Source: Paenibacillus sp. FSL R7-0204
GTDB taxonomy: Bacteria > Bacillota > Bacilli > Paenibacillales > Paenibacillaceae
Direction: 5' to 3'
Length of the DNA stretch: 64,000 nucleotides
Assembly: GCF_038002225.1 (NCBI RefSeq)
Contig: NZ_JBBOCA010000001.1
Location: forward strand, 4,898,001-4,962,000
Shown: positions 12,767 through 30,231 of the stretch, piece after piece
Layout: each line of letters begins with the position of its first letter
Position numbering within the stretch: position 1 is the stretch's first letter
Notes under the pieces: model-generated
What the model saw: the letters and a program-made list of their open reading frames with translations, nothing else
The model's database searches: none
What the model was told of the DNA's origin: nothing
Made by a program: the position numbers and the translations under genes

Positions 12767-12799
12767 GTGTACCGCCTCCATTGCTCTCCTCATGCCCGA

Positions 12800-14497
12800 T
12801 CATTTGCCGCTCCCGCCCTTCTCTGCATACCAGTCGTTGACCTCAGCCGTAATCTGCTCGCCGCCCAGCTTGTTCCACTGTGCCACGAAATTATCGAACT
12901 CGCTTATCGGTCTGCCCTGAATGATATCAAGAAAGGCATCAATCTGAAGATTATTTAGAATATTCTGCTTCTCGATCATCGTCTCTGTAGGTGCACCGAC
13001 GAAGCTCTCATAGAGCAGCTGAGATTTGCGCTCATACCCGTCCAGGATGGAAAAAGCGCCCGAAGGCCCATACGTCCGCTCCCAGCCCCAGCCTGTCTCG
13101 CTGTCCGCACCTCCGGCCTCGTAAGCGGCAATCCGCTTCTGGATCGTCTTCGCTTCATCCTGAAGCAAGGAGGCGTCGCCGGTACGCCGGAAGGTCTCCA
13201 GCTCCCGGAAGGCCTCCAGGTTCTTCTGCACCGGAAACGGCGTCACCGGCGACAGCTTCCACACCGCCTGCGGAGCGTTATAATACCGTTCCACCTCACT
13301 CGTAGTCCCCCAGTTCTTCTCCAGATGCAGGTTAATCAGCTTGATCAGTGCTTCAGGATGCTGGACGCCTTGCTTGACCGCCAGGAACTGGTTGGTGCTG
13401 AACGGAAGCGGCACCTTCGGCGCGGCCCCGGACTCCGAGACCAGCGGGAAGGCCTGCCACTCGGCCTGCGGATTATGCTCACGGCTGACCTGCACGAGGA
13501 AGGAGCCCCACTGCTCCCCGTACATCATTCCGACCTGCTCTTGCTCAATCCAGTCACTGGCCTTGACCCCGTCCTTGAAGGCGAATTCCCTGTCAATCTG
13601 TCCCGTCCGGTACAAATCCTGAAGCACCTGCAGGGCATGCTTGACCTCCGGCTGGATACCTCCATAGACCAGCTTGCCGGTCTTGTCCTTAATCCAGATT
13701 CCTGGATAAGCACCATAACCGGCCATAAATCCGGTAAGTCCCATGACCGGGTCCCACAGATATTTGGTTGCCGCAAGGCCGTAGGTATCGTGCCTGCCGT
13801 TACCGTCAGGATCTTGCTGCGTAAACGCTTTCGAAATAGCCAGCACCTCTGCCATCGTCTGCGGCGGCTGCATGCCGAGCCGCTCCAGCCAGTCCGTCCG
13901 AATCCACAGGAACATCGCGCCCTCAATGGAGGAATTGGTCTCAGGGATCGCCATAAGCTTGCCGTCAAGGGTAGCCGTCTCGAACGGACCTGTCCCTTCC
14001 TCGCTCAGCACCTTGCGGGTTAACGGGGTTGCATACTCGTCATAGACTCCGCTCAGGTCCTGGATCAGCCCTGCATTGCTCAGCACCCTGAGCTGTGAAG
14101 CATTCACCCGCACAATATCAGGGATATCCCCGGAGGCCAGAGATACCCCCAGCTTACGGGAGTAGATGGAGCTCCACTCCGTCCAATCATAAGTAATCTT
14201 AATACCGAGCACCTCTTCATACAGCTCGGTCCAGCGGTTATGCTCCAGCGACTCCCCCGGCAATTCCTTCAGTATTTCTTCCAGTGCATCGTTGTTCTCA
14301 CGTACGAACGACAGCTGAATCGGCGGATCATATTTGCTTAGACCCGGCTCCTCATAGAGCGGAGCGCTCCCCGGCTGTCCCTCAGGGACCGGAGAACGCT
14401 CCGCAAGGCTATCGCCCCTCTCACAAGCGGTCAACAGTTGTACGGCCATGCACGCAGCGACAGTCCAGGCCATTGTGTTCTTGAATGTTATGGGCAC
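12800..14497 (-). CDS. Lipoprotein extracellular solute-binding protein, probably sensory
   Basis: About 565 residues, SBP family 1 fold, with a lipobox LLTAC (Cys about 25) for anchoring outside the membrane. Family features include FVRENNDALEEIL, ASGDIPDIVRVNASQL and a Asp/Gly-rich stretch DPDGNGRHDTYGL. The first in-frame codons lack a ribosome site; the GTG at 14497 has GAGG 9 nt upstream. Unlike other binding proteins in the window it is followed by a kinase and regulator, not permeases. That suggests it works as the sugar-sensing partner of the kinase, although feeding a distant importer is also possible. Confidence 0.88.
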   Translation of the reverse strand: MPITFKNTMAWTVAACMAVQLLTACERGDSLAERSPVPEGQPGSAPLYEEPGLSKYDPPIQLSFVRENNDALEEILKELPGESLEHNRWTELYEEVLGIKITYDWTEWSSIYSRKLGVSLASGDIPDIVRVNASQLRVLSNAGLIQDLSGVYDEYATPLTRKVLSEEGTGPFETATLDGKLMAIPETNSSIEGAMFLWIRTDWLERLGMQPPQTMAEVLAISKAFTQQDPDGNGRHDTYGLAATKYLWDPVMGLTGFMAGYGAYPGIWIKDKTGKLVYGGIQPEVKHALQVLQDLYRTGQIDREFAFKDGVKASDWIEQEQVGMMYGEQWGSFLVQVSREHNPQAEWQAFPLVSESGAAPKVPLPFSTNQFLAVKQGVQHPEALIKLINLHLEKNWGTTSEVERYYNAPQAVWKLSPVTPFPVQKNLEAFRELETFRRTGDASLLQDEAKTIQKRIAAYEAGGADSETGWGWERTYGPSGAFSILDGYERKSQLLYESFVGAPTETMIEKQNILNNLQIDAFLDIIQGRPISEFDNFVAQWNKLGGEQITAEVNDWYAEKGGSGK

Positions 14498-14616
14498 CAG
14501 TTGCAACCTCACTTTGCAAGATTATTACTACCAGAATATTATATTATCCCGGCAAAAATAAAGGAATTGTAAGGTGCAATTCTTGTTTGGCTTACCCGTT
14601 CTTTACCAATCAAGTG

Positions 14617-14709: not shown

Positions 14710-15969
14710 TTAGAAATCGGTGACCGCCTGGAAGGCCGGTTTGGGCTGATGCTGCCTGTCGAACAGCATCGGGGCCTCGGTCCGCTCGGTCGGGAAGGTG
14801 CTCAGCCAGGTATGATCATCCGCAATGCCCCAGAACATGACCCCGCTTACAAGCTCCTTCCGGTCTCTTAGAGCAGCGAATATCTCGCCGTACCGCGCTG
14901 CCTGCCGCTGCAGGATATCCTCAGGAACTACAGGGCCGACATCGCTGAGATCATTATAGATATACAGGCTCATATCCAGCTCGGTGATCTGATTATCCAG
15001 GCCCAGGGAATGGAACTTCTCCATGGACTGGATAATGCTCTCCACCGAAGGATACTCCAGATTAATATGGGTCTGGTGGCCAACCCCGTCAATCGGCACT
15101 CCCTTCGCCAGCATATCCTTGACCAGCTCGTAGAGCCGGTCCCGCTTCTCCGGACTCTCTGTGCCGTAATCATTGATGTACAGCTTAAGCTCCGGTCCTC
15201 CAGCCTTACGGGCCGCCCGGAAGGCGGTCTCAATGAATCCGGTACCGGTAATCTTGTACCAGTCGCTGGCCCGCATACCGTCAGGGTCGTTCGGCTCAAT
15301 CACCTCATTCACTACATCCCAGGAGGAGATGTTGTCCTTGTAACGGCTGACAACAGCGGTGATGTAGCTGTCAAGCCGCTTCAGCAGCAGCTTCTTGTTC
15401 GCTTCGCGCCTCGCCGCATCGGTCTCATCCGCCATCGCCCGGCCGGCTTCATCCCGGAAGAACCACTCCGGGGTCTGGCTGTGCCACACCAGGGTGTGGA
15501 AGCGCAGCCCCATGCCGTTCGCCTTCGCGAAGGCGACGATCCGGTCGGCCCGTTCCCAGGTGAAGGTGCCCTCAGCCGGCGCAATCGCATCCGGCTTCAT
15601 GGCATTCTCGGCCACTAACCAGTTCACATGCCGCTTCAGCAGCTCTGCCGTGGCTCCTTCTGTCTGGTCCGGCTCCACCGCGGCGCCTATGGGGAAGTAA
15701 TCCGCATAGGCTGCCGCCAGCGGTGCGGCCTCCTGCTGCACCGGAGCTTCCGCCGCAGCTTCAGCCGAAGCTGTAGCGGAAGCTGCCGGAGTCCCGGCAG
15801 GTGAAGCGGCCGGGGATGACACTGCACTCTCCTGCGGCTCCGGCGAGGGGGCAGCCGGAGCCGCATCCCCGCCAGAAGCGGAGCAACCGGATAACCCTAG
15901 AAGCGCCGCTGCGAAGACTATACTCCGTGCCAGTCTGGCCGGAGTGCTTGTTCTGTTATTTTGGCGCAC
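14710..15969 (-). CDS. Endo-1,4-beta-xylanase, glycoside hydrolase family 10, lipoprotein
   Basis: Cuts the xylan main chain at the cell surface. The chosen GTG at 15969 has AAGGAGG 6 nt upstream; ATGs at 15975 (touching the ribosome site) and 16014 (overlapping the permease) are less likely. The 419 residues start with a signal peptide and lipobox LSGC (Cys29), then an Ala/Pro/Ser/Glu-rich linker to about 95, then the GH10 barrel. The barrel has the acid/base Glu in WDVVNEVIE (about 220) and the nucleophile in QITELDMSLY (about 329). It is the last gene of the ten-gene operon, 19 nt after a permease, so its products probably feed those importers. Confidence 0.92.
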   Translation of the reverse strand: MRQNNRTSTPARLARSIVFAAALLGLSGCSASGGDAAPAAPSPEPQESAVSSPAASPAGTPAASATASAEAAAEAPVQQEAAPLAAAYADYFPIGAAVEPDQTEGATAELLKRHVNWLVAENAMKPDAIAPAEGTFTWERADRIVAFAKANGMGLRFHTLVWHSQTPEWFFRDEAGRAMADETDAARREANKKLLLKRLDSYITAVVSRYKDNISSWDVVNEVIEPNDPDGMRASDWYKITGTGFIETAFRAARKAGGPELKLYINDYGTESPEKRDRLYELVKDMLAKGVPIDGVGHQTHINLEYPSVESIIQSMEKFHSLGLDNQITELDMSLYIYNDLSDVGPVVPEDILQRQAARYGEIFAALRDRKELVSGVMFWGIADDHTWLSTFPTERTEAPMLFDRQHQPKPAFQAVTDF

Positions 15970-15988
15970 AGTCATCCTCCTTCTATGG

Positions 15989-16936
15989 TTAACCGACAAT
16001 TCCGGTACGCTCAATACTCTCTACGAAATACCGCTGCACGAACAGGTAGATAATGATCAGCGGCAGAATCGCCAGCAGAATCCCTGTATCCTGAACCATG
16101 CTGAGGTAGAACGGATCGGCCTTGGAATTGGCGCCGTCCTCCAGCAGAATCTGCAGATTATACGGCAGCGAGCCGAGCTGGGTCGCCATCACCTTGCTGG
16201 ATGTCAGATAGGTCGTGGTGAAGAAGCTGTCGTTCCATTGCCACACAAACGAGAAGAGCAGCACCGTAACAATAGACGGTATCGCGTTAGGCAGCATAAT
16301 CCGGTAGAAGGTCTTGCCTACCCCGGCCCCGTCGATATAAGCCGCTTCCTCCACCTCTTTGGGAATCCCCCGGAAGAACTGCCGGAAGATGAAAATGTAC
16401 AGCCCCGCCTTCAGCGAGTTCGCCGTAGCAGAGGTTAGAATAAACGGCCAGTAGGTGTTGAGCAGATTCACCGATTTGCCGGTCAGCAGCGGAATCAGCC
16501 CCATCAGGCTGAAATCCTTCAAATTCAGGTAGACCGGAATCAGAATTGTGATCGGCGGAACCAGAATGGTCAATATGACTCCGGCGAACAGCAGCTGGCT
16601 TCCCTTGAACTTCAGGCGGGCGAAGCCATACCCTGCAAGCGCGCAGGAGATGGCGGTCAAGATCGTAGTCAGTGCCGACAGGCTGAAGGTATTCAGCAAG
16701 GCCTGCCAGTAATCCATAATTCCAATCGCTTTGACGAAATTGTCGAGCGTGTAATTCTCGGGAAGCCAGACGACAATCGGCGAATACAGATCGCTCTTGG
16801 CCTTAAAGGCCGTGGATATCTTCTGGAGCACCGGATAGAGGATCACGAACGACAGGCCTGCAATGAGCGTCAGCCGCACGAAGGACCATACCCATTTCTT
16901 CCAGTGTTCGAGCGACAGTAAGCGGGTCGCATGCAT
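15989..16936 (-). CDS. Carbohydrate ABC permease, LplC/MalG type (CUT1)
   Basis: About 315 residues with six membrane segments. The EAA loop reads EEAAYIDGAGVGKTFYRIML near the middle, and the C-terminus VQRYFVESIERTG is of the MalG class. ATG 16936 has GGGAGG 9 nt upstream, whereas earlier in-frame starts overlap that site or the previous gene. It lies 16 nt after its partner permease and 19 nt before the GH10 xylanase gene. This is the second permease pair of the operon. Confidence 0.92.
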   Translation of the reverse strand: MHATRLLSLEHWKKWVWSFVRLTLIAGLSFVILYPVLQKISTAFKAKSDLYSPIVVWLPENYTLDNFVKAIGIMDYWQALLNTFSLSALTTILTAISCALAGYGFARLKFKGSQLLFAGVILTILVPPITILIPVYLNLKDFSLMGLIPLLTGKSVNLLNTYWPFILTSATANSLKAGLYIFIFRQFFRGIPKEVEEAAYIDGAGVGKTFYRIMLPNAIPSIVTVLLFSFVWQWNDSFFTTTYLTSSKVMATQLGSLPYNLQILLEDGANSKADPFYLSMVQDTGILLAILPLIIIYLFVQRYFVESIERTGIVG

Positions 16937-16952
16937 TAGTCCCATCCTCCCT

Positions 16953-17858
16953 TTAATCATAGTAGAAGACCTTCTTCGAGATCAGATAGCTGCTGACGGC
17001 CAGAATTAAGGCCACTGCGGCGAAATACAGCCAGGCCATCGCAGAGCTTAGACCGAAGTTGAACTGGGTGAAGCCGGTCTCCCGGATCAGGTCAGTCATG
17101 GCGTTATTCGAGAAGGAATCAATAATCGTATAGATAGAATTTACCAGAATGAGCGGGCTGACCATCGGGAAAGTGATTTTCCAGAAGGCCTCATAGCCGG
17201 TTGCCCCTTCCATCTTGGACGCCTCATACAGCTGCGGCGAGATGGTCTGGATGCCGGCCAGGAAAATCAGAATCTGTACGCCGGACTGGCTCACAATACT
17301 ATAGATGCGGCTCACGGCGCTGGTCAGATAGTTCACTACCCATTCGCTTAAGCCCGCGTCCAGCATCAGCCCCTCCAGCTCGAAGGTGCCAAGTCCCTGA
17401 ATCGCTCCCGCACCGGCATTCTGATCGTTGACCGCCTGAATCAGGCTGGTGCTCTCCAGGCTCAAAATGACTCCGGAGGCCAGAATGACAGGCAGGAAGA
17501 AGATCGAGCGGGCCAGCGAGCGGCCGATGAATTTCTGATTCAGCAGCACTGCCAGAAACAGGCTGAAGATCACGATCAGCGGCACATTGATGACCATATT
17601 CATAATGGCATCGGCCAGCGAGCGGTTGAATTCGGTATTCACCGTCAGCGCTTCCACATAATTCTGGAAGCCGCTGAAATGAACAATCAGTCCGTCGGAA
17701 TTGGCCTGCACCGAGCTTAAGCTGTAGCGCAGCGAAGACAACAACGGAATCAGGAAGAAGAAGATGAACCCCAGCAGCCAGGGCAGCACATAGAAGAAGC
17801 CCATTAATGCCTTTTGCTCATTGTAGGATCTGCGGTCCAGTCTAAGTATGGATTTCAA
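16953..17858 (-). CDS. Carbohydrate ABC permease, MalF type (CUT1)
   Basis: 301 residues with six hydrophobic segments. The loop EASKMEGATGYEAFWKITFP is the EAA motif for the ATPase. The start is a TTG that shares bases with the stop of the DUF5696-like gene (TTGA overlap), behind GGTGAG, so its translation is probably coupled to that gene. A loop of about 45 residues (about 135-180) between membrane segments is longer than in the other permeases here. It pairs with the MalG-type gene 16 nt downstream. Confidence 0.92.
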   Translation of the reverse strand: MKSILRLDRRSYNEQKALMGFFYVLPWLLGFIFFFLIPLLSSLRYSLSSVQANSDGLIVHFSGFQNYVEALTVNTEFNRSLADAIMNMVINVPLIVIFSLFLAVLLNQKFIGRSLARSIFFLPVILASGVILSLESTSLIQAVNDQNAGAGAIQGLGTFELEGLMLDAGLSEWVVNYLTSAVSRIYSIVSQSGVQILIFLAGIQTISPQLYEASKMEGATGYEAFWKITFPMVSPLILVNSIYTIIDSFSNNAMTDLIRETGFTQFNFGLSSAMAWLYFAAVALILAVSSYLISKKVFYYD

Positions 17859-20419
17859 GATTGCTCACCACCCGTAATATAGCTTTCGGCCTCAACCGTC
17901 CGGCCCTCTGCAAGGACTGCGGTCTTATTGTAGTTGACGATGACAGACATCCCGTTACCGTAAGTGCTTTTATAGACACCGTCTGCCAGCTTCTCATGAC
18001 CGGTCAGCCGCTGATGCTGAACGTTCTTCATCACTCCGTTCACTTCGGTGTATATCTCAGCCGCCTGGTCGATCCACTGCTCATAATGGACCGCATACAG
18101 GTTATCGAAGTCGGTATCTTTCACCTTGTAATTAGGCGCATACATCCATTCATAATAGAGGCCGGAGCCATACTCCAGGCTCTTCAGGATATATTGCCTT
18201 GGATTCGTGAACGTGGACAGGTTAAAAGGCTTGCCGGTGTAATTCACATATCCCCGCACCACCATCGGATAGAACGGAATCTCCTCATCCTCCAGCTTGA
18301 ACCGGCTGCTGGACACCGGAGCATCCGTAATGTCAGAGAGATACGGAAGGGCGTAGGCATTCCCGCCGTCCGCGAGAATGCGCATGGACGCTCCGGTGAT
18401 CTTCTCCAGCGACTGGACCGATATCTGTTCGGACGCAGACCGGTCAATCTCCTGGTTCTTGCGGAAATCGCTGTTCAATTGATCGGCCATATCCCTTAGC
18501 GAGATGCCGCCGGTCTGAAACGGCGCTATCTCCTTCAGCGTGGCATCGACATATCCGCCGATCCTGCTTGGCGAAATAATATAGGCTGGGGTAAAGGAAC
18601 GGTCCCGCCGGTTCAAGGCCATATTGTATGGATAGACGGCTGCCGGAATCTCACTGAGCATCCGGGAAGCCTTCTGGTTAATCCGGAAGCCTGAGGTCTG
18701 GTTCGCCCGCAGCAGTGCCACGTCAGGGAAGAGCTCAATGTCTTGCTCCTTGGCGTATGCTGCCAGCCGGTTCAGCCCCTTGCTGCCGCCGATTGCCTTA
18801 TCCACCGACAGCCGGTCCGGCACCTTGTGATCCAGGCCCCGGTTGAACCAACCGGCATATTTCAGCCTGATATTATCAATGCCGCGCTGCTTCATCTGCT
18901 TCAGAATGCTCTCGGCCTCTTCGAAGGTGGTCAGTGCCTCCAGCGATTGATAAGGAATGCCCAGGACATGCTTGGTCTTCGTGATTCCGCCCACCAGCTC
19001 CAGATAGAACGGCGTATTCATAGGTGCTTCTGCGGAAGCGGCCGGTTGTGCCTCAGGCAGTCCGCCATGCTTCGCCAGATAGCTCTGGTAATAACGCGCC
19101 ATGCCCGGATAGGAAGCTTCCTCTCCGCTCAGGAACGCATAACGGACAACGTAATCTGTCTTGGGCGGCTCCTGCTGGAATTTCGGCAGGGTGCGGTTCT
19201 GATCGCTTGACGTCAGGGTAAGATCTCCCTTGGCAATCAGAGTAAAGCTCGGATACACATAGTTGTATCCGTTCAATCTGCCGCTGGTATCTGCGTTGAT
19301 GGTGGCAAGAGAAGCCCCTTGTTCAATAATGCCCAGCATGGCGCCTTCCTCCCGGATCAGGCCGAACACCGGCAGCTTGACCTCCTGCTGCTGCGCATAG
19401 GCATCCGTGGTCTCCATCGTCCCGTCCACACCATACACCGCCTGCTTATAAGCGGGATAACGGGTCTTGCCGTTGTTGAAATGAATCAGCGCTCCTGAGC
19501 CGTCCGGCACCAGGATGGACCCGGAATCCTTGCTCCCTCCGGCACCCAGGAAGCTCAGCAGGGAGATGTCATTCACCGGATAATCCGCAGGATAGCGGAT
19601 ATCCGCTGACGGAACCTTGACGACCAGCTGGTCCCCGTCCAGGGCATATTCAATGGCGAGCTGGAAAATACGCGGCGCAGGCTTGGTCTGGCTGAGGTTG
19701 TTCTCGGCGATATCCTGCTGCAGATCCTCCTCGGTATATCCCGCCTTCTCGAAGCCCTTCAGCGTCCGCTCCAGCTGAAGCCCCTTCAGCGCTTCATCGT
19801 TTCGCGTATAGACTCCGTTCTCCTCATCGAAGGTGTAGGCAATTTTCATCGTCCGCTGCCCGGTCTTATCCATCTTGCTCATGATCTTCTCCTCGAACCG
19901 CTCCTTGCCCATCTTCATCGGCAGGTCCTCCGCTGTTGCAGCGGTCGTTCCGAACTGGTAGAAGACCTTGACGCCCTCAGGCGTCAGTTCCAGCTTCATT
20001 TGCTTATGGGCCACGCTGTCCGTATATGAATTCACAGAGCTGACCTGACCCAGGTTGTTATAGAAATCCAGCTTGAGCTGCGCGGACAGCAGGTCTTTAT
20101 TATCCCCGCTGGCCTTGGCATCCGCTTCACGGTCCAGCGGGTTGCTGTACCAGACCGTCCCGTCCGACAGATTCTTGACGGCGATCCCTCCGGTAGCTTC
20201 ATCCATGAACAGGCGGAGCTGCGCGTTCTCGAGCACACCTGTCATCCCGCTCACCCCAGTATCAGTGAAGGCAGATTTCAGCGCGCTCCCTTCCGTAAAG
20301 GACACTTCAAGATTCGGTTCATGCCCGCTGGCCTGGCTGTCTGAACTTGATGCCGAACAGCCAGCCAGCACACTCATACTGAAGAGAATCGAGAGCAGCA
20401 TGATTAACGGCTTCCTCAT
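17855..20419 (-). CDS. Large lipoprotein of the DUF5696 type, function unknown
   Basis: 854 residues from an ATG behind GGAGGAGG; an in-frame extension to 20704 runs back through the preceding gene and is not used. Lipobox VLAGC (Cys21) places it on the outer membrane face. Residues to about 430 look like beta-rich domains (VKNLSDGTVWYSNPLDREA, LVPDGSGALIHFNNG). About 440-700 alternate strands and helices in the manner of a (beta/alpha)8 barrel, with DNIRLKYAGWFNRG and ELFPDVALLRANQ, as in polysaccharide-acting enzymes. I recognise it only as a DUF5696-like family. It sits between the Yip1-like gene and a permease, so a role in handling a glycan before import is inferred. Confidence 0.8.
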   Translation of the reverse strand: MRKPLIMLLSILFSMSVLAGCSASSSDSQASGHEPNLEVSFTEGSALKSAFTDTGVSGMTGVLENAQLRLFMDEATGGIAVKNLSDGTVWYSNPLDREADAKASGDNKDLLSAQLKLDFYNNLGQVSSVNSYTDSVAHKQMKLELTPEGVKVFYQFGTTAATAEDLPMKMGKERFEEKIMSKMDKTGQRTMKIAYTFDEENGVYTRNDEALKGLQLERTLKGFEKAGYTEEDLQQDIAENNLSQTKPAPRIFQLAIEYALDGDQLVVKVPSADIRYPADYPVNDISLLSFLGAGGSKDSGSILVPDGSGALIHFNNGKTRYPAYKQAVYGVDGTMETTDAYAQQQEVKLPVFGLIREEGAMLGIIEQGASLATINADTSGRLNGYNYVYPSFTLIAKGDLTLTSSDQNRTLPKFQQEPPKTDYVVRYAFLSGEEASYPGMARYYQSYLAKHGGLPEAQPAASAEAPMNTPFYLELVGGITKTKHVLGIPYQSLEALTTFEEAESILKQMKQRGIDNIRLKYAGWFNRGLDHKVPDRLSVDKAIGGSKGLNRLAAYAKEQDIELFPDVALLRANQTSGFRINQKASRMLSEIPAAVYPYNMALNRRDRSFTPAYIISPSRIGGYVDATLKEIAPFQTGGISLRDMADQLNSDFRKNQEIDRSASEQISVQSLEKITGASMRILADGGNAYALPYLSDITDAPVSSSRFKLEDEEIPFYPMVVRGYVNYTGKPFNLSTFTNPRQYILKSLEYGSGLYYEWMYAPNYKVKDTDFDNLYAVHYEQWIDQAAEIYTEVNGVMKNVQHQRLTGHEKLADGVYKSTYGNGMSVIVNYNKTAVLAEGRTVEAESYITGGEQS

Positions 20420-20433
20420 TCCCGGTCCTCCTC

Positions 20434-21060
20434 CTATCTCCTCAAGACAATTTCTTGGTATATGGTCGAGACGAATGCAATCATCTGCTGAACCAGACTG
20501 AAGAACAGCAGGGTCAGGAAAGCCATGAAGGCCATAGCGAGCAGCGTCAGCAGAATCGTCCCGATCGTTTTGGACGGGGAGAACTGATGAACGGTCATAA
20601 TGCCCACATACAGCAGCAGTCCCGACCAGAGGATGGCAAAGTTTTTGAAAAAGTAATAAAAAGAGCTCTCCTGGGCCGAGATGAAATTGCTGATCCAGAT
20701 CCATGGGAAATTAATCAGCACGATCGGAAGCAGTGCGAAGCAGGTGGTAATAAAAATCTCCACGAACTTCCCCTCCCCGTCCATCAGCGTGGTCAGCGAC
20801 CAGTTCGCCACACACCAGAACAGAACAGGAACCAGCACATAGACCGCTTCCAGCAGGCTGTTCAGATACCGCGGATTATTCATGTTTACCAGGAATCCGC
20901 TGTATTGATCGCCCAGAACATTCGTCAGAATCAGCATAAACAGAATGCCGAAGGAGATGATCAGACTGGTTTTTTGACTGCGTTCATATTTGAGGTCCCA
21001 GTATCCGTTGAACGGATGAACCATCACATACAGCGGATGTTGCAGCGCTTCTCTGTTCAA
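20434..21060 (-). CDS. Yip1-like multi-pass membrane protein
   Basis: About 208 residues. A cytoplasmic start with HPLYVMVHPFNGYWDLKYE is followed by about five hydrophobic segments, as in Yip1-domain proteins. I choose a TTG at 21060 that overlaps the stop of the NHL gene (TTGA) and lies 5 nt after GGTGGAG. An in-frame ATG at 21117 would overlap the NHL gene by 61 nt and add a polar segment. Bacterial Yip1 proteins have no settled function. Fixed between an NHL/TPR protein and a large lipoprotein, it may be part of a membrane complex with the importers. Confidence 0.82.
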   Translation of the reverse strand: MNREALQHPLYVMVHPFNGYWDLKYERSQKTSLIISFGILFMLILTNVLGDQYSGFLVNMNNPRYLNSLLEAVYVLVPVLFWCVANWSLTTLMDGEGKFVEIFITTCFALLPIVLINFPWIWISNFISAQESSFYYFFKNFAILWSGLLLYVGIMTVHQFSPSKTIGTILLTLLAMAFMAFLTLLFFSLVQQMIAFVSTIYQEIVLRR

Positions 21061-22523
21061 TGGAGCTCCACCTTCTTTCTGGCCTTCATTTTCCGGTACA
21101 TTCTCAGGCCCAGCCATAGGGCTAACAGTGCGATCAGAGCCGTCATAATGGTGGAGAAATGTCCCCGAAGCACTTCTTTACGGTAGAGCAGGAACGCTTT
21201 GGAATAGTTGGTCCGGTCCATGCTGCGCTCGAAATACTCCGCCGATTCCTTGTACTCGCCTTGCCGCAGATACGCCTTGCCTATACCCGCATATGCATAT
21301 TCCATATTCGCATTCAAGTTGACGACCTTGCTGAACTCCTGGGAGGCCAGCTCCTCATCACCGTTATAGTAGCTGCGTACTGCACTGTTCAGCGTTCTTC
21401 CGTACTCTGTGGTCTGGAATACCGTAATCTCACCCAGTGCCTGGTCCAGCACCAGAATATCGTCACCGCTATGCTCAATGGCAACCGGAGTGTTGAATTC
21501 GCCCAGACGGTTACCGATTCCGCCGAAAATGTACAGCAGATAGCCGTCCCCGTTGTACGTGAACACCCGGCCCCGGCTGGCATCCAGCACTGCGTATATT
21601 TCACTGTCGCTCACATCAATATCCACGAGCCGCGGGGCACCGCCTGAGCGCGTGGAGTAGAGCAGATCACCGCTGGGCTTGTAATAGCCCTCTCTCCGCA
21701 GAATATCTGCTCCCTGCGCATTCAGCTTCTTGATCGGGTCCCCGTAATCGTCACCGTTGGTAGCGTACAGAAAGCCTTCGTCATTAATGTCCAGATTCGT
21801 GAACTCGGTTGGCGTATACATGACCATCTGCTCGCGCTGCGCCTTGGTGGAGATCGATTTCCAGAAATACTCCACCGCATCGACATGCACCCGGTTCGCG
21901 CCAATGAACGATTTGAACACACCATCCGCCCCGAATTCCATGAATCCGTCGAAGACGCCGGCTGACATCACATAGATGCGGTCCGCCTTGTCTACAGCAA
22001 CACGGACAGGCTGAAATTCAAAGTTCGCCTGCAATAGCTCGGACTTCGGGGCTTCAATGATCCCCACAGCCTTGAAGCTGCTGTCGAGATGGACGATACG
22101 CTTATTGCCCGTATCCGCGACATATACTTCCTTCTGCTGCGTCACATAGATACCCTGCGGATTGTTGAACTTCTCCGCCTTCCCCTTGAACTGGAATGCG
22201 TCTACCGCCTTGACGGATTTGTAGTCCTGATCCAGTATTACAAACCGGTTATTTCCGCTATCCAGAACATAGATCTGCTTATCCGCCGTAACCTGAATAT
22301 CCTGCGGATTGTTGAATGGGCCCGCACCGGAGCTGGCACCCGTGATGAGCTTAGTAGCCTCGTAGGCGGACGGAGCCGCCACCGCATTCCCCCAGTATGA
22401 ATAATTGTAGGAAGGGGCTGCGCTCTCTGCCAGGGCCAGCTCTCCGCCAAGCCCCAGACTGACCAGGCAGCACAAGGCCAGCAGACCGGTTCTCAGTTTC
22501 TTTATCCTTGCGACCATTGTCAC
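21057..22523 (-). CDS. NHL-repeat beta-propeller protein with TPR and C-terminal membrane helix
   Basis: 488 residues. A signal peptide (to about 32, ending ALA) precedes an NHL-type propeller at about 60-385 with recurring motifs such as FNNPQDIQVTADKQIYVLDS, FNNPQGIYVTQQKEVYVADT and TPVAIEHSGDDILVLDQ. A TPR-like pair (YAYAGIGKAYLRQGEYKESA) lies at about 395-435 and a membrane helix near 456-476, ending in a Lys/Arg-rich tail. It should therefore stand outside the cell, anchored at its C-terminus. It is the fifth gene of the operon, starting 12 nt after a permease. A scaffold or sugar-binding role is inferred. GTG 22523 or ATG 22517 may be the start. Confidence 0.85.
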   Translation of the reverse strand: MTMVARIKKLRTGLLALCCLVSLGLGGELALAESAAPSYNYSYWGNAVAAPSAYEATKLITGASSGAGPFNNPQDIQVTADKQIYVLDSGNNRFVILDQDYKSVKAVDAFQFKGKAEKFNNPQGIYVTQQKEVYVADTGNKRIVHLDSSFKAVGIIEAPKSELLQANFEFQPVRVAVDKADRIYVMSAGVFDGFMEFGADGVFKSFIGANRVHVDAVEYFWKSISTKAQREQMVMYTPTEFTNLDINDEGFLYATNGDDYGDPIKKLNAQGADILRREGYYKPSGDLLYSTRSGGAPRLVDIDVSDSEIYAVLDASRGRVFTYNGDGYLLYIFGGIGNRLGEFNTPVAIEHSGDDILVLDQALGEITVFQTTEYGRTLNSAVRSYYNGDEELASQEFSKVVNLNANMEYAYAGIGKAYLRQGEYKESAEYFERSMDRTNYSKAFLLYRKEVLRGHFSTIMTALIALLALWLGLRMYRKMKARKKVELH

Positions 22524-22535
22524 CGTTCCTCCTCT

Positions 22536-23417
22536 CTACTCTTTCATACCGGATGTGGCCATCGTCTGGATGACACTGCTCTGTGAAATAATGAACAACA
22601 GAATCGGCACGGTCATCAGCAGCAGAGCGACTGCCGCTCCGACCCCGGCACGCGCAATCCCGCCTTGGATGACCTGGCTGAGTGCGTAGTGAAGTGTCTT
22701 CAGGTTCTCACTGTAGATGAAGCTTCCTCCATCGGTACCCCACAGCGCCGGAAATTGCAGAATCATCAGCGTCAGCCAGGCCGGCTTCACATTCGGCATT
22801 ACGATTTGCCAGAACACGCGGTACTCGTTCGCACCGTCGATTTTGGCCGCCTCAATCAGTGCATCCGGGATCTGCTCCATGAACTGCTTCATCAGGAACA
22901 AACCTAGCGAGAAGGCCAGTGACGGCACGATAATCGCCGCTTGGGTATTGATCCACCCCAGCTGTGACATGACCAGATAGTTCGGTATTGCCGTAACATG
23001 CGGCGAGAACATCAGGGACAGCACTACAATTTTGAACAGGACGCTTGAGCCCGGGAATTTGAACTTGGCCAGCGGATACGCCGCTGCCGACGCCAGCAGG
23101 ATATGTCCTGCGGTTCCTACCAGTGTGATCAGCAGTGTATTCGCAATGTATCTGGTGAACGGCACCCAGGAATTGCCCATGATCACCATCAGATCGGTGA
23201 AGTTCTCCAGCGTCGGGTTCCGCACCAGGAATCTCGGCGGGAAGATGAACAGCTCATCCAGCGGCTTAAAGGCATTGTTCACCGTGTAGATCAGCGGAAG
23301 AACCATGAACGCACCGAAGCCCAGCAGCAGGCCGAAGAGCATAAAGCTGACAGCAAAGGACCGGTTCAGTCTTTTTTGAGGGCGAAGGGCCCCTATCACT
23401 CTTGAATACAGGGTCAT
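22536..23417 (-). CDS. Carbohydrate ABC permease, MalG type (CUT1)
   Basis: 293 residues and six membrane segments. The EAA loop is EAAKIDGANEYRVFWQIVMP near 190-209. Its ATG overlaps the stop of the partner permease by 4 nt (ATGA), so the two are translationally coupled. The C-terminus ends ...SSVIQTMATSGMKE, as in MalG-class proteins that act with SBP family 1 lipoproteins. It forms the first of two permease pairs in this operon. Confidence 0.93.
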   Translation of the reverse strand: MTLYSRVIGALRPQKRLNRSFAVSFMLFGLLLGFGAFMVLPLIYTVNNAFKPLDELFIFPPRFLVRNPTLENFTDLMVIMGNSWVPFTRYIANTLLITLVGTAGHILLASAAAYPLAKFKFPGSSVLFKIVVLSLMFSPHVTAIPNYLVMSQLGWINTQAAIIVPSLAFSLGLFLMKQFMEQIPDALIEAAKIDGANEYRVFWQIVMPNVKPAWLTLMILQFPALWGTDGGSFIYSENLKTLHYALSQVIQGGIARAGVGAAVALLLMTVPILLFIISQSSVIQTMATSGMKE

Positions 23418-24379
23418 TCACCCACCTTTCTGAGCAGCTTCTGGGTCATCATGTTAGTTCCGAGCATAATTGCGAAGAGAATGGTAGCAATAGCAGAGGC
23501 ATAGCCCATCTCAAAGCGCAGTGTCCCGTAATCCATCAGATGCGTTACCACCGTATGTCCCGCATAGTTGACGCTCGGGAAGCCAGCAAGTGCAATGGAA
23601 ACCTCAGCCACCGCGAAGGAGGCGGTAATCTGCATGACCGCGCCGAACATCAGCTGCGGACGCATGGACGGCAATGTAATGAACCACAGCTCCTGCCAGC
23701 GGTTCCTGATCCCGTCCATCGCTCCCGCCTCGAACAGCGTCTGGTCCACGGTCTGAAGTCCGGCGATGAACGCCAGGAAGCTTGTGCCGAGACTCAGCCA
23801 GAGCTGCACAATAATGACAATGGCGAGAATGTACTTCTCGTTCTGCAGCCATTGAATCGGCTCCAGCAGCACCCCGATCTTCATCAGGAAACCGTTGAGA
23901 TAACCATAGCTGTCTCCCGAGAAGACGATCAGCCATATGAAGAACACATTGCCCGAGATGGAAGGCGCATAGAAGACCAGCGTCATCAGCGACCGGACAA
24001 AGGGCGACAGCTCATTGATCAGCCAGGCGAACAGGAAGCATGCAATATAGCTTAACGGGCCTGTGATGACAGCGAACAGAAAGGTGTTCTTCAGCGCGAT
24101 CATGAACACATCATCGCCCAGCAGCAGCCTGGAATAGTTCTCCCAGCCTATGAATCTCGGCGTCTCCAGCATATTGAAGTAGAAGAAGCTCAGCCCGAAG
24201 GAGACGACCACCGGGATCACCGTGAACAGGAAGAAGATGATCATATAGGGACTCATCATGAAATAATAATGCTTGCTCTTCTTGATATCTTTCCATAGTT
24301 GCGCCAGGCGGGATTCCTTGAGCGGACCGCCAGCCAGCCCTTGCAAGGCTGGTTCAGTGGTATTGTGTATTTGTACCAT
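23414..24379 (-). CDS. Carbohydrate ABC permease, MalF type (CUT1)
   Basis: 321 residues, six hydrophobic segments after a cytoplasmic start of about 35 residues. The EAA-type loop reads FEAGAMDGIRNRWQELWFI. It begins 18 nt after the large fusion binding protein and overlaps its MalG-type partner by ATGA. An in-frame sugar substrate call is not possible from sequence; position in an operon with a GH10 xylanase suggests xylan-derived oligosaccharides. Confidence 0.93.
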   Translation of the reverse strand: MVQIHNTTEPALQGLAGGPLKESRLAQLWKDIKKSKHYYFMMSPYMIIFFLFTVIPVVVSFGLSFFYFNMLETPRFIGWENYSRLLLGDDVFMIALKNTFLFAVITGPLSYIACFLFAWLINELSPFVRSLMTLVFYAPSISGNVFFIWLIVFSGDSYGYLNGFLMKIGVLLEPIQWLQNEKYILAIVIIVQLWLSLGTSFLAFIAGLQTVDQTLFEAGAMDGIRNRWQELWFITLPSMRPQLMFGAVMQITASFAVAEVSIALAGFPSVNYAGHTVVTHLMDYGTLRFEMGYASAIATILFAIMLGTNMMTQKLLRKVGE

Positions 24380-24397
24380 CAGCTTGCAGCCTCCAAC

Positions 24398-27292
24398 CTA
24401 ATACGGAAGTTTGAATTCCTTCCGTTTGATCTGAATTTCATCGTTAATGTAGATCAGATAATCCGACAGGGCTTCACGCGGATTCACCTTCCCGTTGACC
24501 ACCTTGCGGAACGCATTGTCCAGATGCCGGCCTGTGAAGTACCCGCCCGGAACCTGAGGGTTACCCTTCACCCATTGCCACTGGCTCTCCAGCTCCTTGT
24601 AATCCTTCACCGGCCACGGCAGCTCCTCCAGCGCTTCAATGTTCGCGGTCGGATAACGTGCCGCCGCGCCCATCAGCCCTTCCATTTCCCGGCCGTACTG
24701 GACCTGCGTGTCCTTGTCTGTCCACCACTTCATGAATTCCCAGGACGAATCCTTGTCCTTGGCATTCTCCAGCAGCATGACGCCGGTTGTATGGCTGGCC
24801 ACGCTATGGTCCACCGTGCCGTCCGCCTGCTTCGTTCCCGGCACCACTGTGAATTCCCACAAATTACGGATTTCCGGCGCCATTACCGTCAGGCTGTTAT
24901 AGATGGTATAATCGGCAATCCCGATCGGGATCTCGCCTGTACGGAAGCGGTTCGGAAAGTCCACCTTCACCGGGAACTTATAATTGGTATAGAACTGGGT
25001 CCACTTGTTAAATTCACTCATGGAGGTCTCCGAGTTCAGCGCGCTTCGCTTCTGGTCATCTGTGTAGAGCTGCCCGCCGTTCTGATAGAGCAGCATGGTG
25101 AAGGCCGCATTGGGCACCAGCGTCGCGTTGTTCAGTGTATCCTCCAGCGGAAGATAGAACTCCAGATTATGTCTCTGCAGAACAGAGACCACATTGTAGA
25201 CTTCCTCCCACGTAGCAGGCGGCTCCAGGCCAAGCTCCTGCAGAATATCCTTCCGGTAAAAAAGCATCGGGAAGATCTGCTGCTCAGGCAGCCCGTAGAC
25301 ACTTCCGTTGTACTTATAAGGCGTAAGCGCACTGTCCCGGAAGCGTTCAGCCACTTCTTTGAAGTCGGCGAACTGGGACAGATCGGCCGATGCTTTGCGC
25401 ATCGCATAGTTCACTGGAAGGTCCTCGCCAATCTGCATGGCTACATCCGGCCCTTCGCCCGCCAGGGTTGCCGGCAGCAGAATGTTCGGAGGTACCAGCC
25501 GCAGCGCCACGGAGATGCCCGTATCCGGTGTAAAGGTATCGTCAATCATGCTCTTCATCACTTGAGCCTGATCCCGGCCGGTCGAAATCCAGACCGTAAT
25601 CGCCTTCTGGTTCTTCGTCACGTTACCGATACTGTCGTAGTCTTCGGTATACGAGGCTCCATAGGCTCTCAGCTCATGCTTCAGCTTCTGGAGGAAGGTC
25701 GCCTGTGCAGACGGAAGGGGCTTATCCGGCGCCGAGACCACCAGCGAATCCAGTGTTAGCGGCTGTTCCCGCACGCTAAGAATCCAGGTCCCCAGACCGC
25801 CGACATTTGTCTTGAAGGAGACCAGCCGTTTGGCTACCGTATCCGGGTGTTTAGCCATATCTTCCAGCTGGGTGACCATCGAGTACAGCACTGATACCTT
25901 ATCGCTGCGTTCTCCGGTGGCCTGCTCCAGATATTCGCCGACACTGCGGATTATCTCCGCTTGCTCCCGGAATACCTTGGTCATCTCCGGTATCCGTTTC
26001 TCCAGCTGATAGTCGCGGAACTTATCCGGGTTATTGGAGGTAATCGCCAGAATATTGCGGTACATTTCATTCAAGGTCAGGACACTGGACTGGATGGTGC
26101 GGACCAGCGGCGCGATATCGCCCAGGGTCACGGTCAGTCTCAGCTTGTGCGTCCCTTGTGTAAGATGGAACAGGTAAGGCTCTTCCCCGCCGAGTACATT
26201 CATCTGCCAGCCGGGAGAGTAATTGAAGCGGATCTGCTTCATCTCGGTGAACGGATATTCACCGTCAATGGTCAGGCTGCGGTTGGCATAGACGCCCCGG
26301 AGCTGATTCTGCTTCTCCTTGAGCGCTATCCGGTACAGACCTTCTTCAGGGACATCAATCTCCCATTCGATCCATTGCCCCGGAAGCTTCCAGTTCACCC
26401 CGCCGATGGTGTTGATCCTTAAATTTGAGACGGCATAAGGAACCACTGCCGGGCTGGAGCGGTCGGATAACGGGTATAAGGTCGGTGAGGATTTGGCGGA
26501 TGCCGCTTCGGCCTGGACCTCGATATAAGGCTCTTTTACCGGCTGAAGGCCCTTAGTCTCATACTGCTGCTTAGCCTCTGCGTAAGACTGCACTGTCCGG
26601 TCCTGGAACAGCTCAATATAATCAATGGCCATCGGCTCACGGAGCGCGGTCAGCGACAGGGTCTGGTTTCCCTGCTCCAGATAGAAGGCATATGGCTCCT
26701 CATAGAAGCCTTCACTGTCCGCAATGACCGTGGACTGCCACACCGGCTGCTCCACCTGTCTGGGGCGCAGATCATTGCCGCGGTCATCCTGCTTAATGAC
26801 CTCTTCACGGTTCCCCCAGACCCGGTCGAAGAGCAAGGTATCCGCTCCCTTGAAGGGCACCTGCCCGTTAATGGAGAGGGAACGCTCAACCGACGAGCTT
26901 TTACCTTCCACCGGATAATAATGAACCCGGAGGTTATACAGACCGGATTCCGGAACCGGCACCTCCCAAGAGATGGTTCCCGATTCCGGAGTAATGACTG
27001 CTGTTCCGTCAAGCCCCTCGAATTGCTGCTTCACCTCAAAGGCATCTCCGCTGCCAGGGGAATACATCTCCCCTTCGATGCGGATCTCCCGGTCAGGGCG
27101 CGGAGCGTCCCCGTGTTGCTTCAGATAGGCTTCATAGCTGCCTTCTGCGGCGTCCTGCGCGGCTGCCGTGAACTTGCCTTCTGCGGGAGAGTCGGAATGC
27201 ACAGGCTGCCCCGAGGAATTAAATATCCAGATCGTCCCGGCCAGCAGGACAACAACCAATATAATCGCTATGTTCCTGATTCGAATATTCAA
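24398..27292 (-). CDS. Membrane-anchored solute-binding protein fused to N-terminal carbohydrate-binding-like modules
   Basis: 964 residues, about twice the size of a normal SBP. A hydrophobic helix at about 7-25 (IAIILVVVLLAGTIWIF) has no lipobox Cys, so it probably stays as a membrane anchor. Two beta-sandwich modules follow at about 70-240 and 290-400 (ISWEVPVPESGLYNLRVHYY; QWIEWEIDVPEEGLYRIALK), resembling carbohydrate-binding modules. A helical segment leads to an SBP family 1 domain from about 560 to the end (AITVWISTGRDQAQVMKSMI, GPDVAMQIGEDL). The TTG start has GGGGAGGAG 4 nt upstream. It is the second binding protein in the operon and lies just before a permease pair. Confidence 0.87.
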   Translation of the reverse strand: MNIRIRNIAIILVVVLLAGTIWIFNSSGQPVHSDSPAEGKFTAAAQDAAEGSYEAYLKQHGDAPRPDREIRIEGEMYSPGSGDAFEVKQQFEGLDGTAVITPESGTISWEVPVPESGLYNLRVHYYPVEGKSSSVERSLSINGQVPFKGADTLLFDRVWGNREEVIKQDDRGNDLRPRQVEQPVWQSTVIADSEGFYEEPYAFYLEQGNQTLSLTALREPMAIDYIELFQDRTVQSYAEAKQQYETKGLQPVKEPYIEVQAEAASAKSSPTLYPLSDRSSPAVVPYAVSNLRINTIGGVNWKLPGQWIEWEIDVPEEGLYRIALKEKQNQLRGVYANRSLTIDGEYPFTEMKQIRFNYSPGWQMNVLGGEEPYLFHLTQGTHKLRLTVTLGDIAPLVRTIQSSVLTLNEMYRNILAITSNNPDKFRDYQLEKRIPEMTKVFREQAEIIRSVGEYLEQATGERSDKVSVLYSMVTQLEDMAKHPDTVAKRLVSFKTNVGGLGTWILSVREQPLTLDSLVVSAPDKPLPSAQATFLQKLKHELRAYGASYTEDYDSIGNVTKNQKAITVWISTGRDQAQVMKSMIDDTFTPDTGISVALRLVPPNILLPATLAGEGPDVAMQIGEDLPVNYAMRKASADLSQFADFKEVAERFRDSALTPYKYNGSVYGLPEQQIFPMLFYRKDILQELGLEPPATWEEVYNVVSVLQRHNLEFYLPLEDTLNNATLVPNAAFTMLLYQNGGQLYTDDQKRSALNSETSMSEFNKWTQFYTNYKFPVKVDFPNRFRTGEIPIGIADYTIYNSLTVMAPEIRNLWEFTVVPGTKQADGTVDHSVASHTTGVMLLENAKDKDSSWEFMKWWTDKDTQVQYGREMEGLMGAAARYPTANIEALEELPWPVKDYKELESQWQWVKGNPQVPGGYFTGRHLDNAFRKVVNGKVNPREALSDYLIYINDEIQIKRKEFKLPY

Positions 27293-27364
27293 CGTACTCC
27301 TCCCCTTAAGCGATGGATCATAAGTTGGTATATTTCAAGCTCCAGCTTAATTTCAGCAAGAATG

Positions 27365-27395
27365 GGAACAACAGTCCGCGGGGGACTGTTGTTCC
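27365..27395 (-). promoter_or_regulatory. Perfect 13-bp hairpin after the first binding-protein gene
   Basis: GGAACAACAGTCC pairs exactly with GGACTGTTGTTCC around a five-base loop. There is no U-run on the minus strand, so it is more likely to protect the binding-protein mRNA 3' end or partly reduce read-through than to terminate fully. It lies 14 nt past the stop codon. Confidence 0.75.
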
Positions 27396-27409
27396 ATGCG
27401 GGTATCCGT

Positions 27410-28801
27410 TTATTTTTTGTAGACCGCGTCTACAGAAGCCTGAACCTTCGCCTTGTACTTCTGAATGACAGTAGATGCCGAGGTTCCCTTCTTAAGCTCG
27501 TCAATCATCTCGTAGTACGGCATGGTCGAGAAGGTGTTATGGTTCGTTAACAGCATGCCGCCTTCGACCAGCTTGGCGTTGTTGATATCATCCTCATTGT
27601 CATACGTACTCTCCAGGGAAGCCTGCTTAGGATAATCGTAGATCGACTCGATATCGTTGATCTTCTCCCAGATATACAGCAGCTGGTCCGGATTCTCGGC
27701 CTTCTTCGGGATCGTCAGGAACTGGACATTGGATTCCACACTGTGGTATTCGGTAGCATTAGGCCCTTTTGGAAAAGGAACAAAGCCGATGTCATAGTCC
27801 TTCATATCCGTCTTGAAGCCGTTCGCCTCATAATCTGCTCCCGCATACATCAGTGTGTTCCCCTGGCGGAAGAACTGCGCCGGTTCCTGCCAGTCCCCGC
27901 CTTCAGTCGGCCGCGCTACCTTCTCAGCACCCAGCTTAGCGATGAACTTGAAGACCTCCAGCAGCTTGGGATCATCGAGATTCTGTTTGTCCTCAATGGT
28001 CAGATCGGTCTCATTGGAGGCCATTGCCATCTCCAGGAACCCGCCTGAGGCCAAGCCCCAAACATCAAGTTTTCCGTTGTTATCTGTATCCTTGTTCGCT
28101 TCTTTGGCGACTTGGGTGAAGGTCTCCCAGTTCCAGTTATCCTCATTCACATATTCCTGGAGCGGCTTCATGCCCAGCTTCTTCATCAGAGTGCGGTTAT
28201 AGAATACCCCGCTGATCAGGTTGCCCGCATTCTCCGAGAAGCCATAGCCCCGGCCCTCATATTGCGAGAATTCCGTAGTCATCCGCTGATTGAAGGCATT
28301 CTCATTCTTGGTGTACTCGTCAACCGGCCAGAACATATCCTGCTTCGTCAGCACCGGAATCATATATCCCTTGCCCATTCTGACAATATCGCCAAGCGGT
28401 TCACCGGCGACCAGTGAAGCCACTACCTTCTTCTGGTATTCACCGAAATCCAGCGCTACATATTCAACCTTGAAATTATGCTTGGCCATCAATTCCTTCA
28501 GATTCTTCGAGCGCTGGATATTGTCAGGATTGTCCTCGGGAATCTTCATATCCCACCAGGAGACAATCTTGATCGTTCTGCCGCCCATATCGAAATCCTT
28601 TTCCGGTGTAGCATTGCTCGGCTCTGCAGCCTCTGTAGCTTCCGCAGTGGCTTCAGCTGCCGGAGCCTCCGTGGCTGCCGCCGGCTGGGCTGATGCTCCC
28701 CCTCCGGCGTTCCCGCCGTTCCCTGCTCCGCCGCCGCAAGCCGTTGTTGCAGCTAATAACAACATACTAATGAATACTGACATTACTTTTTTTGCCCGCA
28801 T
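27410..28801 (-). CDS. Lipoprotein extracellular sugar-binding protein (SBP family 1)
   Basis: 463 residues from an ATG behind GGGGGG; the open frame continues to a TTG at 28816 with no ribosome site. Lipobox ATTAC (Cys22) is followed by a Gly/Ala/Glu-rich linker, then the binding-protein fold from about 75 (KDFDMGGRTIKIVSWWDMKI). Ligand-cleft features include PLGDIVRMGKGYMIPVLTKQ and a Asp/Asn-rich DTDNNGKLDVWG. First gene of the ten-gene operon, followed by a strong hairpin and then a second binding protein. Two binding proteins for two permease pairs suggests two importers in one transcript. Confidence 0.93.
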   Translation of the reverse strand: MRAKKVMSVFISMLLLAATTACGGGAGNGGNAGGGASAQPAAATEAPAAEATAEATEAAEPSNATPEKDFDMGGRTIKIVSWWDMKIPEDNPDNIQRSKNLKELMAKHNFKVEYVALDFGEYQKKVVASLVAGEPLGDIVRMGKGYMIPVLTKQDMFWPVDEYTKNENAFNQRMTTEFSQYEGRGYGFSENAGNLISGVFYNRTLMKKLGMKPLQEYVNEDNWNWETFTQVAKEANKDTDNNGKLDVWGLASGGFLEMAMASNETDLTIEDKQNLDDPKLLEVFKFIAKLGAEKVARPTEGGDWQEPAQFFRQGNTLMYAGADYEANGFKTDMKDYDIGFVPFPKGPNATEYHSVESNVQFLTIPKKAENPDQLLYIWEKINDIESIYDYPKQASLESTYDNEDDINNAKLVEGGMLLTNHNTFSTMPYYEMIDELKKGTSASTVIQKYKAKVQASVDAVYKK

Positions 28802-29054: not shown

Positions 29055-29825
29055 ATGTTGTACAGAATCTTATGTGTAGAGCGAAACCGTCAGGTGCGGG
29101 AGATCGCTTCTTATATGGCAGGGAGCAGACTTAAGAATTTCATTATTCATGCGCATGCTGATTATTCATCCGATATTCTGCGGCTGATCCGCAGCGAGGG
29201 GATATCACTGGTTCTTCTGAACATCAGGGACGCCCATGCGCCGGGCATGAGAGTCTGTGAGCAGATCAGGCAGGGAAGCTCCGTTCCGATTATCCTGCTC
29301 GGAGGCAGCGGGGATTTCGGGCTGGCGCGCCAAGCTTTACTCTATAATGTAAGCGATTACTTGACAGACCCGGTGGACCCGGCTGAGCTGGGCGGAAGTC
29401 TGGAGGCGGTTAGGCGGTTACTGGCCCCGGCCGGCAGACCGGCTGCTGCGGAGCAGGATTATGCGGAGTTCCCCCTTCAAAAAGATCCGCCCTCCCCGTC
29501 TCCAATTGTCAGTACGATCAAGCAATATGTGGATGAGCAGCTCCATCGTAATATTACGCTTAAGCAGATTTCCGACTCCTTGAACTTCAATTGCGCTTAT
29601 CTTGGACAGAAGTTCAAGCAGCAGGAGAATATGTCCTTCAACGAATACCTCCTGCGCCAGCGGATGGAGAAGGCCAAGCTGCTGCTGGAAACGACCGACA
29701 TGAAGATCTATGAGATTGCAGACGCTGTGGGGTATTCGGAAATCGACTGGTTCTACAAAAAATTCAGAGAATACACGGGAACCAGTGCCAATGAATACCG
29801 CAAGCAATGCTTCGTCATTGCCTGA
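29055..29825 (+). CDS. AraC-type regulator with degenerate receiver domain
   Basis: 256 residues. The N-terminal 120 residues follow the receiver pattern, but the acidic pair is replaced (LCVERN), the phospho-acceptor position reads LVLLNIRDA with Asn for Asp, and the usual LLKP is LTDP, losing the Lys. It therefore cannot be phosphorylated in the normal way. The last 100 residues are a sound AraC DNA-binding domain (ISDSLNFNCAYLGQKFKQ, DAVGYSEIDWFYKKFREYTG). No long central region or kinase partner is present. The ATG follows AAAGCGGGG. It stands between the divergent ten-gene operon and the lplBCA-type operon and may control either. Confidence 0.88.
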   Translation: MLYRILCVERNRQVREIASYMAGSRLKNFIIHAHADYSSDILRLIRSEGISLVLLNIRDAHAPGMRVCEQIRQGSSVPIILLGGSGDFGLARQALLYNVSDYLTDPVDPAELGGSLEAVRRLLAPAGRPAAAEQDYAEFPLQKDPPSPSPIVSTIKQYVDEQLHRNITLKQISDSLNFNCAYLGQKFKQQENMSFNEYLLRQRMEKAKLLLETTDMKIYEIADAVGYSEIDWFYKKFREYTGTSANEYRKQCFVIA

Positions 29826-30216: not shown

Positions 30217-30231
30217 ATGAAAGCGTTATCA
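30217..30231 (+). promoter_or_regulatory. CcpA cre box of the lplBCA-type operon
   Basis: ATGAAAGCGTTATCA fits WTGNAARCGNWWWCA at all positions. It starts 11 nt after the -10 element, so bound CcpA would cover the transcription start region. Confidence 0.82.

Follow-up and report, generated by a model that had tools for sequence, protein, structure and literature searches.

The window analysed here, a stretch of 64,000 nucleotides from the 7.7 Mb genome of Paenibacillus sp. FSL R7-0204 (contig NZ_JBBOCA010000001.1, positions 4,898,001 to 4,962,000), carries on its minus strand a chain of ten genes (28801-14710) in which two pairs of permeases of ATP-binding cassette (ABC) importers enclose three proteins that to date bear no other names than 'NHL repeat-containing', 'YIP1 family' and 'DUF5696'. 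We hold with moderate confidence that this chain represents a conserved glycan-uptake system of Bacillota, combining a double importer of the CUT1 type with a membrane anchor built from the NHL and YIP1 proteins, a glycan-presenting DUF5696 protein and a locus-specific glycanase. As deduced from protein families and gene order, the glycanase, which differs between loci and is a glycoside hydrolase (GH) of family 10 here, would supply oligosaccharides; the binding proteins SBP1 and SBP2, together with DUF5696, would capture these products at the cell surface; the NHL-YIP1 anchor, with its propeller outside, would hold or couple the permeases and DUF5696, possibly in a physical complex; and two dedicated MalFG pairs would import the oligosaccharides, uptake being driven by a shared MalK-type ATPase.

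All ten genes of the initial annotation are present, with Pfam support. The first encodes SBP1, a sugar-binding protein (27410-28801; PF13416, 2.6e-15) with a lipobox-like N-terminus read in the sequence. It is followed by SBP2 (24398-27292), a binding protein of 964 amino acids (aa) with a C-terminal SBP domain (PF13416 at residues 608-868), whose TTG start codon is preceded by GGGGAGGAG. The permeases MalF1 (23414-24379) and MalG1 (22536-23417) come next, then the NHL-TPR protein (21057-22523; PF01436, 1.2e-15), which comprises an NHL beta-propeller, TPR-like repeats and a C-terminal transmembrane helix, the YIP1-family membrane protein (20434-21060; PF04893, 4e-12), whose TTG start overlaps the NHL stop, and the DUF5696 lipoprotein (17855-20419; PF18952, 5e-220). 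MalF2 (16953-17858), MalG2 (15989-16945) and the GH10 xylanase (14710-15975; PF00331, 1.4e-103) complete the chain. The successive intergenic gaps from SBP1 to GH10 measure 117, 18, -4, 12, -4, 14, -4, 7 and 13 bp; the nine genes from SBP2 to GH10 are thus spaced by at most 18 bp or overlap, and SBP1 is set apart by 117 bp. Pfam upholds the Yip1 and GH10 labels given earlier, and the protein called 'DUF5696-like' belongs to the DUF5696 family itself. For the NHL-TPR label, the NHL part stands; the TPR match falls under the Pfam cut-off (E 2e-4), yet the predicted model has helical repeats there.

The strongest result of the analysis is the association of the NHL-YIP1-DUF5696 triplet with importers. 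We compared 83 loci, namely 64 further long PF18952 matches drawn from 398 genomes of the phylum, 12 loci from a class-level search, six named loci and the window, with flanks of up to 10 kb on either side of each. PF18952 was detected at E <= 0.001 in 52 of the 398 genomes and above the cut-off in 43; the 41 with long matches (> 300 bits) are counted here, leaving out G275 and G297 (about 26 bits each). Copy numbers from the genome-wide profile searches are lower bounds, as the best 2 to 4 candidates were scored per genome. Directly 5' of DUF5696, NHL and YIP1 are found in 81 of the 83 loci, as separate genes in 37 and fused in 44 (two of these fusions being clipped by a contig end), and the remaining two loci begin at a contig end on that side. 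MalF lies directly 3' of DUF5696, again in 81 loci, the other two running into a contig end. On each side, DUF5696 thus retains its neighbours in all 81 loci that can be tested. Close relatives of the window genome include Paenibacillus silagei and Paenibacillus sp. FSL R7-0210 (DUF5696 97% identical).

Co-occurrence across genomes follows the same pattern. With a profile built from 30 fusions, NHL-YIP1 matches above 400 bits occur in 41 genomes, precisely those with DUF5696 matches above 300 bits. Beyond these, nothing above 400 bits was found among the 398 genomes searched: G223, of the same genus (g98) as G098, has a partial match of 217 bits in a 284-aa frame covering the propeller part only, and all the rest score at most 73 bits, again to the propeller. 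Matches cover most of the N-terminal half of SBP2 in 40 of the 41 genomes; in the last one (G097), this half lies at a contig end. Strong matches to this half outside the 41 genomes occur in G098 and G140, on contigs ending inside MalF1, and weaker ones in G007, G050, G087, G116 (family f16), G324 and G341. A rumen Butyrivibrio fibrisolvens plasmid also carries the system, in the order GH43-SBP2-MalF-MalG-NHL-YIP1-DUF5696-MalF-MalG-SBP-SBP. The earlier proposal that the three proteins belong with the importers is borne out by linkage, co-occurrence in the same 41 genomes and the permease clades described below, on which grounds we reject chance clustering. In one genome (G593, L126) the DUF5696 match is split into two pieces. 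The NHL-YIP1 fusion with the highest score comes from genome G264, where a 4.7-kb contig carries it along with a nearly complete DUF5696 (L138, L115).

FastTree phylogenies of MalF and MalG, rooted with another permease of the window, separate the two pairs by gene position. The 79 MalF sequences encoded 3' of DUF5696, among them MalF2, form one clade, from which all 50 MalF located upstream of MalG1 are absent; likewise, the 76 MalG 3' of DUF5696, with MalG2, form one clade separate from the 51 MalG of the first pair. One position-unplaced MalG also falls in the MalG2 clade, and nine unplaced permeases fall in the other clade of each tree; clade support is 0.91-1.0. As the clades of both permeases follow gene position, the divergence of the two pairs appears to be older than the sampled lineages, and their inheritance seems to go by position. 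PF00528 is present in all four permeases, and a script found the EAA pattern in three of them; in MalG1, where the loop was read in the sequence, it ends in MP, not LP. Two ordinary CUT1 importers, independent of each other, neighbours by accident and with unrelated passengers between them, would fit the presence of EAA loops in each pair, either of which could work alone, and the seven of 83 loci with full flanks where no SBP2 half lies nearby. Such an arrangement is strongly disfavoured by the neighbours kept on each side of all testable loci, by the co-occurrence in the same 41 genomes, by the position-tied separate permease clades and by the fusion of the NHL and YIP1 genes, and we regard it as scarcely credible.

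The binding proteins and permeases have the features of CUT1 importers (MalEFGK type), and SBP1 and SBP2 carry sugar-type binding-protein domains (PF13416/PF01547); ATP-driven oligosaccharide uptake is the predicted function of the window importers. An ATPase is encoded elsewhere: the whole genome contains one OB_MalK match and the window locus none, and only two distant ATPase matches pass E 1e-20 among the open reading frames (ORFs) of the 83 loci. Both permease pairs would then be powered by a shared MalK-type ATPase. On a plasmid of P. cellulosilyticus (L169), the operon core begins with an ATPase annotated ugpC. SBP2 occurs within the fetched stretch of 62 of the 83 loci, in nine of them 3' of DUF5696, and pairs with MalFG1 by gene order. 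Genes of the SBP1 type were found upstream of DUF5696 in 39 loci and a short distance downstream of it in 39, with both sides occupied in 12; in many loci outside the class of the window, SBP1 lies 3' of MalG2. The N-terminal half of SBP2 begins with a hydrophobic segment (anchor or signal) and comprises two regions resembling carbohydrate-binding modules (CBMs) and a helical stretch. Its profile matches residues 431-520 of 5x7g, which we take to be a CBM35, at 8.5e-10, and the first region matches at 0.002-0.02 only. These CBM-like regions do no more than hint at bigger or branched oligosaccharides. Stand-alone distant relatives of this half, in frames of 449-544 aa devoid of an SBP domain, were observed in one other family of the phylum (L159, L161, L163, L166); two of these genomes also encode a separate SBP resembling the C-terminal half of SBP2 (L160, L162).

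The NHL and YIP1 parts form a single protein in 44 of 81 loci, and we modelled one such natural fusion (L066) with AlphaFold2 (AF2; predicted local distance difference test 87.7, predicted template modelling score 0.78). The model consists of a signal or anchor helix, a beta-propeller (residues 32-372), helical repeats (374-434), one 59-residue helix (438-496) passing through the membrane region and a helical YIP1 part (505-716). The Foldseek hits listed for the whole model were mostly NHL and similar propellers. In the window NHL protein, positive residues follow the C-terminal transmembrane helix, so that the propeller probably faces outside. More broadly, the outward-facing or membrane-spanning placement proposed earlier for the three proteins fits their N-terminal signals or lipobox and their hydrophobic segments. 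Domains of the NHL, TPR and Yip1 kinds typically serve in protein-protein contacts and in organising membranes, and the triplet sits between two permease pairs in many loci; these features would also suit a role outside transport, either in extracellular glycan sensing or in the membrane placement of importers and lipoproteins (assembly, quality control). We give this alternative little credence, as signalling is already covered in several loci by YesM/YesN and AraC-type regulators and retention of a glycosidase fold would be unexpected in an assembly factor.

That fold belongs to GH129. Over its whole length, DUF5696 consists of the beta-sandwich and TIM barrel seen in the GH129 glycosidases ZgGH129 (5opq/8rzk) and NagBb (5wzn), and homology is detected by profile searches against the Protein Data Bank (PDB; 3.5e-12 and 1e-8) and by hhalign (4.6e-28). 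Judging from fold and profiles, DUF5696 is a descendant of GH129-like glycosidases. Unlike these enzymes, it adjoins permeases in the loci examined, and the window copy has no match to the Pfam GH129 model PF11308, only PF18952 being found at E <= 0.1. PF11308 was likewise not listed at E <= 10 in ten divergent DUF5696 members; a search of 249 genomes did not find it either, although its controls were equally silent. A piece of ZgGH129 gave no tblastn match in plasmids. A length-limited protein search with a 261-aa sub-alignment retrieved only DUF5696 fragments, and a sub-alignment run against the PDB stopped short of the catalytic strands.

The nucleophile Asp and acid/base Glu of GH129, kept in 15 of 15 and 14 of 14 GH129-type sequences, are not conserved across the DUF5696 family: both catalytic carboxylates are present in 20 of 59 members and one or both are missing in the other 39. 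The DUF5696 protein of L091 is a natural example without the pair. With the residue numbers of NagBb as a guide to the catalytic positions, the putative ancestral catalytic residues of the window copy are D643 (or D646) and D684. The hhalign partner of D646 is D459 of a GH129 sequence (P0137), which we identify as the nucleophile from the PDB title 'ZgGH129 D486N Michaelis complex' and by residue counting (459 = 486 if gap-free); the columns of D643 and D646 are both unconserved family-wide. Since most members lack one or both carboxylates, we infer that the main task of DUF5696 is to bind glycan and hand it on to the importer.

The enzyme encoded beside this module is exchangeable. A second copy of the core, from SBP1 to MalG2, is present in the same genome (L056, C1:7227200-7247000), with no YesM/YesN in its chain and with GH30 in place of the GH10 enzyme of the window. 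We scanned 33 neighbours outside the window (from 299 ORFs, window included), mostly cluster representatives of same-strand chains. Eighteen of them are glycoside hydrolases or polysaccharide lyases (GH26, GH43, GH5, GH31, GH42, GH29, GH2, GH28, GH35, GH3, GH30, alginate lyase and pectate lyase) and three are of esterase or GDSL types. The GH10 xylanase is thus an interchangeable partner and not part of the core, and because the neighbouring enzyme changes between loci, the module looks like a general uptake chassis. The initial annotation had envisaged a complex linking surface xylanase to uptake, which is too specific given how widely the enzyme varies; because of this exchange, we reject a xylan-specific complex as a general reading. 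In the window itself, the imported oligosaccharides may be xylan-derived. In L169, several LLM-class flavin oxidoreductases are encoded after the core, a hint that the substrate of that lineage may be of another kind.

Several observations weigh against the proposed glycan-uptake system. The remaining 12 of the 33 neighbours belong to other types or have no match (lectin, beta-helix, HEAT, CBM, methyltransferase, oxidoreductase, Omp85 and others), on the plasmid of P. cellulosilyticus the module adjoins flavin monooxygenases and not glycanases, the loci lacking SBP2 mean that the permease pairs are not always adjacent, and a terminator-like hairpin parts SBP1 from the other operon genes. The proposal draws on sequence and models. 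Further points concern DUF5696: the window copy has carboxylates (Asp) at all candidate catalytic positions and D643 is kept in 14 of 14 sequences at least 56% identical to it (itself included), so that this protein may be an active glycosidase. In addition, the nucleophile column is ambiguous by three residues, hhalign pointing to D646 via a 4-residue gap and a gapless strand match to D643, and the invariance of the GH129 comparison set is a weaker control than it seems, since this set comprises just 15 sequences of little diversity, 13 being 42-65% identical to the first.

DUF5696 could accordingly be read as a working enzyme, a surface glycosidase that represents a new family related to GH129 and trims side chains of oligosaccharides before uptake. 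The varied residues would then reflect other chemistry or substrates, or a mixture of active and dead members. The GH129 fold and homology, the carboxylate pair in the window copy and in the 20 of 59 members counted above, the constancy of D643 among close relatives and the eight of 28 GH129-type hits bearing both Pfam labels are all consistent with such an enzyme. The 39 members missing a carboxylate speak against it, as do the N or S found at the acid/base position in six of the 14 close sequences and the mid to low conservation of the catalytic columns in a family where motifs such as VPDGSG are near invariant. We consider an active enzyme rather unlikely; the constancy of D643 in close relatives and the narrowness of the GH129 control set add some weight to it, at the slight expense of the uptake proposal and of its bolder form given next. 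In this bolder form, doubtful at present and put forward tentatively, DUF5696 and NHL-YIP1 would be genuine subunits of an ABC importer of a new class, one joint machine in which two permease pairs would share a YIP1-anchored assembly and a pseudo-glycosidase receptor would feed them long or branched glycans, in the manner of the non-catalytic transporter partners with a glycosidase fold known from animals.

The system is of the CUT1 and Gram-positive utilisation kind with new parts, namely a GH129-fold protein often lacking the catalytic pair and a Yip1 anchor beside an ABC importer. Like the polysaccharide-utilisation loci of Gram-positive bacteria, the window co-locates importers, GH10, a GH5-ricin lectin gene and YesM/YesN and REC-AraC regulators. 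It differs from CUT1 importers by its two co-inherited permease pairs, its SBP with a CBM-like N-terminal half, and the NHL-TPR/YIP1 membrane protein and GH129-fold protein found in all testable loci of the module; to our knowledge, none of these four features is part of the CUT1 definition. Eukaryotes offer an analogy in SLC3 proteins (rBAT/4F2hc), membrane-tethered non-catalytic partners of heteromeric amino-acid transporters that have a glycosidase fold. DUF5696 might play a similar role as transporter partner; the SLC3 proteins have a GH13 fold and serve another transporter class, and we claim no kinship. If the proposal is correct, it would give a function to DUF5696 and a transport role to a bacterial Yip1 protein, show that bacteria, too, can recruit a glycosidase that is dead or dying as transporter partner, and define a uniform uptake chassis whose substrate could be guessed from the neighbouring enzyme. 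In the open-access literature searched, DUF5696 was not found, nor was a description of these gene combinations among the papers listed. A 2021 article lists the C. bescii transporter Athe_0085-87 without an assigned substrate (PMC8579813); this transporter could not be tied to the module.

The hairpin between SBP1 and SBP2 is a perfect 13-bp stem-loop on the minus strand (27365-27395), terminator-like in our scan, with five T in the eight tail bases. As an unbroken T-run is absent, it could be a partial terminator or attenuator, or an mRNA-stability element. Among the other loci, 20 were folded at this gap, and stem-loops were predicted in all 20 (minimum free energy only, without shuffling as a control); their sequence is common to near relatives and different in the remaining loci. 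This suggests a kept element separating the SBP1 mRNA from that of the remaining operon.

On the same strand, 197 bp after GH10, lies a set of three genes (14512-9397) encoding SBP3, a 570-aa binding protein (12800-14512; PF01547), a YesM-type histidine kinase (11009-12793; PF06580, HAMP) and a YesN-type response regulator with an AraC DNA-binding domain (9397-11040; PF00072, PF12833). SBP3 is a possible ligand sensor of this two-component system. Upstream of SBP1, a divergent REC-AraC regulator is encoded on the plus strand (29055-29825; PF00072, PF12833), and a YesN-like gene occupies its place in six of six named loci (L132-L137). Beside it, a further permease pair and a gene resembling that of a 598-aa binding protein are present on the plus strand (30275-34083). 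The GH5-ricin lectin gene lies 3' of YesN on the same strand (7542-9266), and members of its protein cluster also terminate the gene chain in L132-L135. Finally, the window contains four exact cre-like matches, two of them just outside the locus (9296-9309 and 30218-30231); 1.2 would be expected by chance, and four were reached in 4 of 100 shuffles.

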